DNA of 55,644 bases from Sphaerochaeta halotolerans (lineage in GTDB: Bacteria > Spirochaetota > Spirochaetia > Sphaerochaetales > Sphaerochaetaceae), in the NCBI RefSeq assembly GCF_003429665.1, contig NZ_QUWK01000004.1, positions 110,665 through 166,308 of the forward strand. Reading direction: 5' to 3'. The position numbers and the translations under genes were made by a program. Shown in pieces: positions 5,569-55,644 of the stretch. The notes beneath the pieces were generated by a model. It had not been told where the DNA came from. It saw only the letters and a list, made by a program, of their open reading frames with translations, and searched no databases. The stretch's first letter is position 1; each line of letters begins with the position of its first letter.

Positions 5569-7962
5569 ATGGATTATACAGAAAAGGATTTTGGAAAGAT
5601 TTTAAAGCAAAATGCTCTCAAGATGCGTCGGATGATGTTGCAAAGCAACACGACCTGTATGAGGGTGTATGATCGAAACCTGGAACGTTTTCCTGTAACT
5701 GTTGATCTCTATGGTCCCTATGCAAGAATCACCGATTACAGCGATGATGGGTTGGATGAAGAGGATGAGAGGATTTGCTGCGATATCGTCTCACGAATGC
5801 TCTACGTACAGACCAACCATGTGGTGTTCCACCGACGTTCAAAGCGGACAGGGAAGGAACAGCACAGCTTGCAGAGCGAACAATCCCTGGAAGTGCAGGT
5901 CAATGAAAATGGACTTTTGTTTACTGTTGACCTGACCAAACGGATTGATACCGGCTTATTCTTGGATCACATGCTTACGAGAATGGTGGTTGAAGGAATG
6001 AGTCGGGGGTGCAAGGTGTTGAACTTGTTCTCCTACACAGGATCCTTCTCGGTATATGCTGCCCGTGGTGGAGCTGAACGTGTAGAATCGGTGGACTTGT
6101 CCAGTACCTATACTGCATGGGCAGAAAAAAATCTTGCCGACAACGGATTCCCCCTGACAGTGTTCCCTTGCATTGCTGCCGATGCATGGACATATGTGAT
6201 GGAAGCATATGTACTAGGCAAGAAGTATGACCTGATCATTTTCGACCCTCCGAGTTTTTCGAACAGTCGAAAAATGGATCATGATTTTGATGTCCAAAGG
6301 GACTATTTGCGATGGATGAAGGTGCTGAATGCACTACTTGCGATGGGTGGAAAATTGGTGTTTTCAACAAACTTGGGAACATTCAAGATGGATGAGAAAG
6401 CAATACGTGGATTTGAGATCAAAGAAATTACCAGACGAGTTGCAGCACCGGGCTTCACCCGCCGTCTGGGAACTGCGAGGACGTGGTTGCTGACGAAACA
6501 CGAAGATATACGGATACCAGAAAGTTGGGTAGTTACCGTACAAGAAAAAGCTGGTAAAAATGACCAGCACGATGAGAATGGGCAAGAAGCCCGTATACTA
6601 AACAAAGAAGAAAAGATTATGAAAGAAGAAAAGAAAGAACCAGTAGAACTGGAAACAGAAGAAAAAACCGTAGAGGAAGAAGCAGCAAACACAACTGTAG
6701 CAGAACCCGAACAGGCAGAAGAAGATATGGTGCTTCTCAATGATGAAGCAGACCAGGCAGTTGAAGATCTCAAAGATGAGAACGCAGAATTAGCACAATC
6801 TGATGATGAAGAAGTTGAAACAGAAACTGACAATTCTAATGATGAAGAAACCCCTGTGGTTGAACCAAATGAAGTTGAGGATGACCTTCTAACGCTTAGT
6901 TGGGATGACCATGAGTTTGTCCCTTTCATGCAGAAAGCTCCATCTGAAGAGTCCTCTGAGAAAAGAGAGACTGAAAATCGGGAACCTCGTAGAGATGACC
7001 GCCCAAGCAGTGACCGTCCTTCCTACCGAGATAGAAACGACAGACGCCCAAGTGGTGACCGCCCGTCCTACCGAGATAGAAACGACAGACGCCCAAGTGG
7101 CGACCGTCCGTCCTTCAGAGACAGAGATGACAGACGCCCAAGTGGTGACCGTCCGTCCTATCGTGACAGGGATGACAGACGTCCAAGCGGCGACCGTCCG
7201 TCCTATCGTGACAGGGATGACAGACGTCCAAGCGGCGACCGTCCGTCCTACCATGACAGAAACGACAGACGCCCAAGCGGTGACCGGCCTTCCCACAGAG
7301 ACAGAGATGATAGACGCCCAAGTGGTGACCGTCCGTCCTACCATGACAGAGATGACAGACGCCCAAGCGGTGACCGCCCTTCCTATCGTGACAGGGATGA
7401 CAGACGCCCAAGTGGTGACCGCCCATCCTATCGTGACAGGGATGACAGACGCCCAAGTGGTGACCGCCCGTCCTACCGTGACAGGGATGACAGACGCCCA
7501 AGTGGTGACCGCCCGTCCTACCATGACAGAAACGACAGACGCCCAAGTGGCGACCGTCCGTCCTTCCGCGACAGGGATGACAGACGCCCAAGTGGTGACC
7601 GTCCGTCCTACCGCGACAGGGATGACAGACGCCCAAGCGGTGACCGCCCGTCCTTCCGAGACAGAGACGACAGACGCCCAAGCGGTGACCGCCCGTCCTT
7701 CCGAGACAGAGACGACAGACGCCCAAGCGGTGATCGTCCTTCCTACCGCGACAGGGATGACAGACGCCCAAGTGGTGACCGACCTTCCTTCCGCGACAGG
7801 GATGACAGACGCCCCCCATTCTCCAAGGAAAAAAGTGGGAGAGATGGTGGCAGTGATGAACGTCGTCAACGTAAATCTGGTCCGAAGCCTTATGGGTTTG
7901 ACTCTTTCCGGCAGACCAAGACCAGAGGAGAAAACGAAGACGATCCGTTCCTCTCTGAATGA
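5569..7962 (+). CDS. Class I SAM-dependent rRNA methyltransferase (RlmK/RlmI-like) with acidic linker and Arg/Asp repeat tail
   Basis: Residues 1-312 form a methyltransferase like the C-terminal half of RlmKL. The SAM-binding motif LNLFSYTGSFSVYAA is at 151-165 and the catalytic-type FDPPSFSNS at 225-233, so it probably methylates a 23S rRNA base. Residues 335-465 are strongly acidic (Glu-rich). Residues 482-751 are 18 tandem copies of a 15-residue unit of the form DRPSYRDRDDRRPSG, followed by a short basic end. The tail looks like an intrinsically disordered RNA-binding region as seen on some RNA helicases. An internal ATG near residue 351 opens the acidic part, so two ancestral genes may be fused. 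No clear Shine-Dalgarno precedes the start. Confidence 0.85.
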   Translation: MDYTEKDFGKILKQNALKMRRMMLQSNTTCMRVYDRNLERFPVTVDLYGPYARITDYSDDGLDEEDERICCDIVSRMLYVQTNHVVFHRRSKRTGKEQHSLQSEQSLEVQVNENGLLFTVDLTKRIDTGLFLDHMLTRMVVEGMSRGCKVLNLFSYTGSFSVYAARGGAERVESVDLSSTYTAWAEKNLADNGFPLTVFPCIAADAWTYVMEAYVLGKKYDLIIFDPPSFSNSRKMDHDFDVQRDYLRWMKVLNALLAMGGKLVFSTNLGTFKMDEKAIRGFEIKEITRRVAAPGFTRRLGTARTWLLTKHEDIRIPESWVVTVQEKAGKNDQHDENGQEARILNKEEKIMKEEKKEPVELETEEKTVEEEAANTTVAEPEQAEEDMVLLNDEADQAVEDLKDENAELAQSDDEEVETETDNSNDEETPVVEPNEVEDDLLTLSWDDHEFVPFMQKAPSEESSEKRETENREPRRDDRPSSDRPSYRDRNDRRPSGDRPSYRDRNDRRPSGDRPSFRDRDDRRPSGDRPSYRDRDDRRPSGDRPSYRDRDDRRPSGDRPSYHDRNDRRPSGDRPSHRDRDDRRPSGDRPSYHDRDDRRPSGDRPSYRDRDDRRPSGDRPSYRDRDDRRPSGDRPSYRDRDDRRPSGDRPSYHDRNDRRPSGDRPSFRDRDDRRPSGDRPSYRDRDDRRPSGDRPSFRDRDDRRPSGDRPSFRDRDDRRPSGDRPSYRDRDDRRPSGDRPSFRDRDDRRPPFSKEKSGRDGGSDERRQRKSGPKPYGFDSFRQTKTRGENEDDPFLSE
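7012..7821. repeat. 45-bp in-frame minisatellite, 18 units
   Basis: Eighteen tandem 45-bp units encode 15-residue repeats inside the methyltransferase gene. Units vary mainly at a Tyr/Phe/His site, an Arg/His site and an Asn/Asp site; the last unit ends RRPP. The unit length is a multiple of three, so copy-number change keeps frame. All reading frames remain open through the array, which makes long spurious antisense frames. Confidence 0.95.
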
Positions 7963-7990
7963 TTTTGTTACCTATAGTGTAAATATGTTT

Positions 7991-8013
7991 AGAACCCCCG
8001 TTTTGGGGGTTCT
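7991..8013 (+). terminator. Hairpin terminator after the methyltransferase gene
   Basis: A perfect 9-bp stem AGAACCCCC / GGGGGTTCT around GTTTT, 28 bp after the stop codon. The T-run is weak. Confidence 0.65.
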
Positions 8014-8056
8014 ATGCTGATTACATGAAAGATTATTTTCTTCAGATTGTATCATA

Positions 8057-53524: not shown

Positions 53525-55644
53525 GTTTGAGATAGGTGTTATCTCATAGGGTAGCTGACCTTGTCGTTGCTTTTATTTGTCCAGTCTTGAGTTTGAGATA
53601 GGTGTTATCTCATAGGGTAGCTGACCACAGCTCGTCGTATAGGAGGGGAACATGGAGTTTGAGATAGGTGTTATCTCATAGGGTAGCTGACCACCTCCAA
53701 AGGTAACAAGGTAACAAGGTAAGTTTGAGATAGGTGTTATCTCATAGGGTAGCTGACCACGACTTCGTTTCTGATTACATGCACATAGGTTTGAGATAGG
53801 TGTTATCTCATAGGGTAGCTGACCTGATGCCAAGGTCCATCGCCTTCTCCAGGAGTTTGAGATAGGTGTTATCTCATAGGGTAGCTGACCGTCGCGTAGA
53901 TTGCGAGATGCGCCAAGGCAGTTTGAGATAGGTGTTATCTCATAGGGTAGCTGACCCCTGCCTGCCGATGAGGGTCAGCATGTTGTGTTTGAGATAGGTG
54001 TTATCTCATAGGGTAGCTGACCAAAATAGTAGGCATCTTTACTCCTCCTTGCGTTTGAGATAGGTGTTATCTCATAGGGTAGCTGACCTTAAACCAATCT
54101 TTGTATCTTTTTGTTTCTGTTTGAGATAGGTGTTATCTCATAGGGTAGCTGACCCCACTTACGGTGATGATGCCGAGTGCCGATGTTTGAGATAGGTGTT
54201 ATCTCATAGGGTAGCTGACCCCTACGGCAAATAGGAGACAGGACAATGGGGTTTGAGATAGGTGTTATCTCATAGGGTAGCTGACCCCTCCGAAGCTGAC
54301 TGTGCGAAAATCTTCTGTTTGAGATAGGTGTTATCTCATAGGGTAGCTGACCCCCTTATTGTGGGAATGAGCTTGTCCCATGGTTTGAGATAGGTGTTAT
54401 CTCATAGGGTAGCTGACCGGGTACAGACGCACAAAACAGGGCCTTTCAGTTTGAGATAGGTGTTATCTCATAGGGTAGCTGACCAATAGGTACAATCCTT
54501 TCAGGAGCAATGAGGTTTGAGATAGGTGTTATCTCATAGGGTAGCTGACCCGGGTCTTAAAAACTATAAACGTGCTTATCGTTTGAGATAGGTGTTATCT
54601 CATAGGGTAGCTGACCAATTATCACCAAGCAGTGTGATGAAATCTCGTTTGAGATAGGTGTTATCTCATAGGGTAGCTGACCTTAAACCAATCTTTGTAT
54701 CGTTTTGTTTCTGTTTGAGATAGGTGTTATCTCATAGGGTAGCTGACCAGGGAGTCCATGCTGCAAAGCAGTTGATCGGTTTGAGATAGGTGTTATCTCA
54801 TAGGGTAGCTGACCGATAAACAGGGAGAAATGATATCTCTCTGAGTTTGAGATAGGTGTTATCTCATAGGGTAGCTGACCTCTATGGTGAGACAGTATAC
54901 TCTTTGCTTGGTTTGAGATAGGTGTTATCTCATAGGGTAGCTGACTCCGAAAGTTGTAAAAATGTACAAGGTATCGGTTTGAGATAGGTGTTATCTCATA
55001 GGGTAGCTGACTTGTCGTTCACGTTCTTCTGCAACCATACACGTTTGAGATAGGTGTTATCTCATAGGGTAGCTGACTTTGACACCGGCATATCCCAACC
55101 TGCGATATGTTTGAGATAGGTGTTATCTCATAGGGTAGCTGACCACTGATACCTTCCCGTCCGATGGTTCTTGGGTTTGAGATAGGTGTTATCTCATAGG
55201 GTAGCTGACCACAGATTGACAGCGCTACCAGTTATCAGCAGTTTGAGATAGGTGTTATCTCATAGGGTAGCTGACCGCATCCCGCCGGCCTTGGCCGTCA
55301 TGTACAGTTTGAGATAGGTGTTATCTCATAGGGTAGCTGACCTTTTTTCTTCAATCAAATTCTCATCCCTATGTTTGAGATAGGTGTTATCTCATAGGGT
55401 AGCTGACCCAGAGCCTGAAACAGCAAAGGGACCCTTTGGTTTGAGATAGGTGTTATCTCATAGGGTAGCTGACCTTACAGTTGCCTGCCTTACTTGTACA
55501 TGCTGTTTGAGATAGGTGTTATCTCATAGGGTAGCTGACTGTGTCTACTCTCTTTGGTGACACAGAGGTTGTTTGAGATAGGTGTTATCTCATAGGGTAG
55601 CTGACTATGAGAATGGTTCACTTAATCCCAATCCTTGTTTGAGA
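53525..55644 (+). CRISPR. Type II-A CRISPR array, 32 full repeats plus 8 bases of repeat 33; continues beyond the window
   Basis: Repeats start every 66 bp from 53525 to 55637. Each is 36 bp, beginning GTTTGAGATAGG and ending GTAGCTGAC plus C or T. Thirty-two spacers are all 30 bp. Repeats are otherwise identical. The final base is T in five repeats (those at 54911, 54977, 55043, 55505 and 55571). The anti-repeat match fixes transcription on the plus strand, so spacers nearest csn2 are newest. Spacers 9 (54089-54118) and 18 (54683-54712) differ by one base. Repeat number is a lower limit. Confidence 0.99.

Follow-up and report, generated by a model that had tools for sequence, protein, structure and literature searches.

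A conserved candidate internal start in a tailed RlmK-like methyltransferase gene of the Sphaerochaetaceae predicts a separate disordered tail protein

Comparison across the family suggests that a single gene of Sphaerochaeta halotolerans encodes two proteins, a tailed RNA-modifying enzyme and, through an internal start, the tail on its own, a reading to which we assign a probability of roughly 0.72. The gene lies in the window, by which we mean the whole 55,644-nucleotide stretch of DNA that was analysed. Ribosomes starting at 5569 would make an RlmK-like RNA methyltransferase carrying a long disordered tail, rich in Arg and Asp and spaced by aromatic residues; ribosomes landing on a second Shine-Dalgarno (SD) sequence, set in the codons of the last beta strand of the enzyme, would produce only the tail, with TTG 6487 as the most likely start in the window. 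In 11 other genera, codon comparison indicates that this internal site is conserved at the nucleotide level beyond what the protein needs. The features of the gene are the following.

5569-7962, + strand: open reading frame of 797 codons (797 aa), a real frame in the ORF listing of the window
5569..6504, + strand: RlmK-like SAM-dependent RNA methyltransferase domain, residues 1-312 (Pfam, NCBIfam, PDB, AlphaFold2)
6477..6481, + strand: Shine-Dalgarno-like GAGGA in the codons of A303-R304-T305, counterpart of the AGGAG found in 11 other genera
6487..6489, + strand: proposed internal start TTG (Leu307), 6 nt after GAGG, SD energy -5.9 kcal/mol
6487-7959, + strand: predicted nested tail product, 491 aa
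6505..6876, + strand: acidic linker, with residues 318-355 predicted helical
6509..6540, + strand: outer stem TACGG (6509-6513)/CCGTA (6536-6540), pairing over 16 loci
6550..6568, + strand: hairpin GCTGG/CCAGC, its pairs showing compensatory changes within the genus
6619..6621, + strand: second candidate start ATG (Met351), in-frame, weak SD (-1.8 kcal/mol)
6877..6909, + strand: short motif EDDLLTLSWDD, of LxLxW type after an acidic residue
7000-7809, + strand: repeat array of 18 units x 15 residues, RPSGDRPSYRDRDDR type (Tandem Repeats Finder, in-frame units)
7885..7959, + strand: C-terminal motif KPYGFDSFRQTKTRGENEDDPFLSE with a PYG[FYM]-type core (family comparison)

The folded part of the protein is probably an RlmK-like enzyme that methylates ribosomal RNA. 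It matches PF10672 (90 bits, Pfam), and its closest solved structures, 3v8v and 3v97, are those of E. coli RlmKL, recovered both by sequence (residues 6-309, E 6.6e-56, phmmer) and by fold (Foldseek rank 1, E 2.2e-29, queried with an orthologue model). Sequence family and fold are thus both shared with the K domain of E. coli RlmKL, unlike which the enzyme here stands alone and is tailed. The score against the NCBIfam RlmKL equivalog model stays below its cut-off (275 bits vs 466); that model covers a bifunctional protein of 704 aa, and only the K half is present here. In the AlphaFold2 model, most ten-residue blocks up to residue 320 score above 80, confidence dipping at 91-100, 231-240 and 291-300, and the last beta strand of the enzyme spans residues 304-310. 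Along the reading frame the methyltransferase is followed by the acidic linker, the EDDLLTLSWDD motif, the 18-unit array and a conserved C-terminus, and most of this tail has a pLDDT below 50, as is also seen in a 580-residue orthologue. The structure matches and pLDDT values bear out the first-pass annotation, which had described an RlmK-like enzyme with a disordered Arg/Asp tail. A complete, bifunctional RlmKL is encoded in the window genome as well (756 aa, 805 bits vs the cut-off of 466; G000:C47:157861-158772, loci L002 and L253), which makes the tailed enzyme the second RlmK-like protein there; as the same genome encodes both, its target may differ from that of RlmKL.

The family was searched in 139 genomes, of which 126 contain the enzyme at E <= 1e-85. 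From these, 103 loci were extracted, one per genome, 87 of them stop-terminated and 16 running off the available sequence. In four genera (g7, g8, g12 and g19) the tail comes directly after the enzyme, and the junction reads CAGGAGTTGG-NNN-ATG. Codon use was then compared at columns with an invariant residue and a choice of codon. Over the 15 loci of the four genera, 3 of 97 such columns use a single codon; where at least four codons are available (55 columns), this is true only of the adjacent AGG AGT (R, S). Widening the set by g2, g5, g9, g15, g17, g21 and g22 gave 29 loci from 11 genera, with L105 (genome G085) left out as frameshifted. Here R is encoded by AGG in 29/29 loci and S by AGT in 28/29, AGGAG is present in 29/29, and the next most fixed of the 37 columns with at least four codons reaches 83%. 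The odd row, L098, has AGG AGC, which retains AGGAG, and CTT at the start position. Once L098 is removed, the single-codon columns are 2 of 63, namely the AGG and AGT of the junction; mean codon identity over 81 comparable columns is then 0.31, with AGG and AGT at 1.0 and the next column at 0.70.

A start codon stands at a constant distance from this sequence. The codon 7 nt past AGGAG is ATG in 14 loci, TTG in 13 and CTT in one, and falls beyond the contig in one more, so that ATG or TTG is found in 27 of the 28 readable loci, L098 being the exception; in the seven genera with a TTG start, TTG accounts for 11 to 34% of all codons for Leu. Computed SD energy has a median of -6.9 in 27 loci of this set vs -2.8 for a control of 1116 in-frame ATG, GTG or TTG codons within the enzyme domain; 4% of the control codons are as strong as -6.9 and 24% lie at -4 or lower. 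Across the 11 genera, an SD and a start at usable spacing are found together with nucleotide conservation beyond the protein. The site is also present (CAGGAGTTGGATGATG) in G048 (L256), a locus found later through its tail and outside the discovery set. In G085, a frameshift just upstream truncates the enzyme frame and leaves the tail ORF, the SD and the start intact; this frameshift may be real or a draft-genome error.

In the window genus, Sphaerochaeta, the perfect AGGAG site is absent and a shifted, weaker form is present. In the core set of 19 loci, a single codon is used at 4 of 104 columns; three of these invariant codons fall at residues 301-315 (G301, L307 as TTG, and R315), and the chance of this clustering is 4e-4, a figure that ignores relatedness and uses a residue window picked after the result. 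L307 is encoded by TTG in 19/19 core loci, and R304 by AGG in 16 and AGA in 3; with R304 not fixed, the shifted form is weaker on codon conservation than the site of the 11 genera. Extending the count to 23 genus loci, the start codon is TTG in 19, GTG in 3 and ATA in 1, and SD energies of the 22 TTG or GTG loci range from -4.0 to -8.4 kcal/mol. A separate tail protein had been suggested at first reading, with ATG 6619 as its start. The idea of an internal start gains from the SD and start codon conserved in the comparison, but the best-supported start lies at the end of the enzyme domain, at TTG 6487 in this genus and at an ATG or TTG one codon later in the 11 other genera, rather than at ATG 6619. 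A counterpart of the ATG occurs in all 23 genus loci that reach that position.

Two candidate RNA stems lie downstream of the window-genus site. The hairpin at 6550..6568, which sits between TTG 6487 and ATG 6619, was aligned in 16 of the 23 genus loci; 96.3% of cells are paired and 6 are changed on both sides. Its covariation of 0.257 compares with at most 0.10 in slid versions and was not reached in any of 500 shuffles, while the number of pairs changed on both sides (2) was matched by 65 of 500 shuffles. Folding energy at the hairpin is unexceptional, its z of about -1.5 being matched in other parts of the gene, so the case for this structure rests on covariation. Four of the five pairs of the outer stem are invariant in the 16 loci and the fifth pairs in 5/16; the CGG codon of R315, one of the four invariant codons of the core set, is part of this stem. 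In g4, a hairpin was seen by eye ahead of an SD-like stretch and an ATG.

Rfam returned no family above its gathering score, and a sub-threshold match to the rimP leader (29.9 bits vs 47) spans the 3' end of the gene at 7958-8042. Promoter-like sites number three vs 2.8 expected. One promoter-like site at 6572-6599 (9/12 matches) is placed just upstream of ATG 6619, where such a site is expected by chance; a separate tail transcript from an internal promoter is possible on this sequence. The hairpin was rejected as an intrinsic terminator. None was detected in the + direction; read in the - direction (6568-6550), the hairpin of the window has a T run behind it, but the A-run underlying this is, by eye, not kept in all loci.

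Across 101 family loci, the exact form of the site is found in 27, the shifted form in 22 (all g1) and neither in 51, with the motif unreadable in 1; the 51 belong mostly to g11 and g16 and include one contig ending at the site. In g4, g10, g11, g16, g18 and g20, an ATG with an SD energy of -5 or lower occurs at residues 300-350 in 61% of 49 loci vs 14% of 245 control windows, a comparison in which the linker of these six genera is purine-rich and its ATGs are doubled. This is only suggestive of an internal start in these genera as well. Mapped onto a quick tree of 76 scored rows, the exact site requires 4 changes; it occupies two clades plus g22, near the window genus. A single origin in the family ancestor followed by later shifts is the simplest account of this distribution, although not a proven one.

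The tail itself extends across the family. At least 100 residues follow residue 312 in 85 of the 87 stop-terminated loci, a count that includes G020, with its indels, and three loci interrupted by runs of N; the two exceptions are G030, which is without a tail, and G085, frameshifted before it. In the 81 stop-terminated tails without runs of N and without G020, median fractions are 0.24 for R (range 0.08-0.30), 0.16 for D (0.08-0.22), 0.10 for E (0.05-0.16) and 0.09 for Y+F (0.04-0.13), and the window tail has R 0.21, D 0.19 and Y+F 0.05. Net charge is +6 to +16 in the stop-terminated tails of g11 and g16, and most window-genus tails are negative because of their acidic insert. By eye, the units vary between genera and many genera have no regular array. 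An acidic residue followed by the LxLxW motif occurs in 49/103 loci and 13/19 genera, and is absent, over the 103 loci scanned, from g11, g16, g2, g10, g21 and g6. A PYG[FYM]-type core lies within the last 60 residues of 82 of the 85 stop-terminated tails, the three misses being two tails with runs of N and G020. Taken together, these comparisons indicate that the tail is an old family trait, translated and selected, in which unit sequence and length turn over and composition and end motif persist. As a separate observation, the acidic linker of L050 and L052 (G023 and G025) has its own tandem repeat of DEEVETETDES type, with more copies in G023.

We also looked for the tail beyond the fused gene. 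In 13 loci from other spirochaete families, the nearest match stops just past the last strand in 12, and the remaining one has a Lys/Arg-rich extension of ~45 residues; for each of these 13 loci the first three frames listed downstream included no RD-rich one. Stand-alone tail genes were sought in 16 genomes, comprising those where the enzyme was not found or was tail-less, plus fused-gene controls, and 13 of the 16 gave no match at E <= 0.01. The three matches are the controls G076 and G032, which have the fused gene, and G048, whose contig begins inside the gene.

The 18-unit, in-frame 15-mer tail that had been annotated is present at 7000-7809, and Tandem Repeats Finder reports 7000-7814 with a period of 45, 18.1 copies and 88% matches. 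The accompanying claim, that the units are so alike that expansion must be recent, does not hold, since 48% of synonymous sites differ between units (pS 0.48). Pairwise comparison of the 18 units gave 952 differences, of which 720 fall at codon position 3; by effect, 752 are synonymous and 200 non-synonymous, with a pN/pS of 0.079 in the annotated frame and of 0.20 to 2.4 in the five other frames. Codon-level comparison thus indicates translation of the array and purifying selection on it, with its units kept alike as protein and not as DNA. The other frames are open because the unit length is a multiple of three, and were rejected as genes (pN/pS 1.8 to 2.4 in frames + 1, + 2, - 0 and - 2, and 0.20 in - 1). 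Change in array length, which had been suggested between strains, is supported between species of the genus: in the stop-terminated loci most closely related to that of the window, leaving out G020 for its array indels, tails run from 366 to 654 aa. Unit sequence and copy number likewise differ between close species, compared with one genome per species and with many contigs ending inside the array. Phase variation through the G020 frameshift was considered and rejected, as the indels place the array in several frames and sequencing or assembly error is likelier. G020 (L049) is a one-contig genome in which these indels are small, and its near twin G019, 99.8% identical to it in methyltransferase DNA, is open to the contig end.

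Such turnover between close species, together with units that are 88% alike, would be expected if the array were a recent and selectively neutral minisatellite expansion without function; this explanation is contradicted by the pN/pS and pS values, by RD-rich tails in 85/87 loci and by a related end motif in 82/85, and we regard it as hardly tenable. More serious are two readings in which only one protein is made. AGGAG could slow elongation where the domain ends and so give the enzyme time to fold ahead of the disordered tail, and its position, in the final codons of the folded part, is one where a pause would be useful; L098, which has AGGAG without a start codon, points the same way. Pausing has no need of a start codon, yet ATG or TTG lies 7 nt downstream in 27/28 loci and the window genus has TTG or GTG in 22/23 at the shifted place, which makes this reading unlikely. 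Alternatively, the protein would exist only in fused form, its tail tethering RNA, and the conserved codons would be an RNA or DNA element such as a binding site or the leftover of an old gene boundary. The enzyme and tail have no stop separating them, the tail is fused in 85/87 stop-terminated loci, and the window-genus hairpins with compensatory changes would be RNA-level elements besides a ribosome site. The conserved bases, however, are AGGAGUUGG plus a start codon, which best fit ribosome recruitment, and we consider a fused-only product decidedly unlikely.

Under the favoured reading of one gene and two proteins, the internal site would be used, also in the window genus with its shifted, weaker form. 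We posit that the tail and the tailed enzyme would act jointly on ribosomal RNA, in large-subunit assembly, with the tail as a multivalent polymer that makes many weak RNA contacts and serves as an RNA chaperone or condensate scaffold. A pLDDT below 50 over most of its length and a multivalent Arg/Tyr composition give the tail the make-up of such a disordered scaffold. The free tail would add scaffold without enzyme and so set the enzyme:scaffold ratio, and the genus-specific hairpins may tune the internal start. We think it doubtful that this extends to a family-wide 'enzyme plus scaffold' gene with its ratio set at one place, in which RNA structure in Sphaerochaeta regulates the split, perhaps by product feedback.

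This role on the rRNA side is proposed because of the part that RlmKL plays in assembly, the RlmKL encoded by the window genome and a tailed DbpA-type helicase. Some DEAD-box RNA helicases carry Arg-rich disordered tails, and the window genome encodes a DEAD-box helicase (L251) that has a DbpA RNA-binding domain and ends in a short tail rich in Arg, Asp and Tyr. By eye, the make-up of this tail is similar to that of the methyltransferase tail, but it is short, has no tandem repeats and is without the LxLxW and KPYG motifs. The E. coli RlmKL protein aids large-subunit assembly beyond methylation, through its L domain; its K and L domains are able to work as individual enzymes, and RlmK and RlmL are separate proteins elsewhere, as stated in PMC11194073.

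Internal in-frame starts are already known, and the nearest published parallel that we found is the CTP1L endolysin. In the phage endolysins CTP1L and CD27L, as here, an in-frame internal SD and a GTG or ATG start lie at a domain linker; in CTP1L they make the C-terminal domain alone, in amounts reduced by synonymous recoding, and what is made is a folded domain that binds the cell wall and forms oligomers with the full protein (PMC4777826). The present case differs in that the product would be a polymer, predicted to be disordered, from the gene of an RNA enzyme, and in that the SD lies within the last strand of the enzyme and is conserved across genera. Truncated proteoforms of bacterial proteins such as ClpB and YebG likewise arise from a second start in the same frame, in a study that also scored SD and start conservation across relatives (PMC11005335), whereas the product here is nearly all predicted disordered and is repeat-rich. 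Neither a tailed RlmK nor a nested tail was present among the matches listed in searches of open-licence literature. These matches likewise included no nested, disordered and repeat-rich product on an rRNA methyltransferase such as the one predicted here from codon conservation across 11 genera.

Bacterial internal starts usually come from ribosome profiling in model species, and Sphaerochaetaceae have few genetic tools. Here, a candidate internal start is visible from codon conservation alone and predicts an unannotated disordered protein. This opens the question of what role a repeat-rich, RNA-contacting polymer plays beside an rRNA modification enzyme, and of why the unit sequence is free to vary when the composition, the end motif and the start site are all conserved.

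At the far end of the window, 32 copies of a 36-base repeat (at most one mismatch) recur at a spacing of 66 bases over 53525-55606, which leaves spacers of ~30 bases, and from its sequence this region looks like a CRISPR array.
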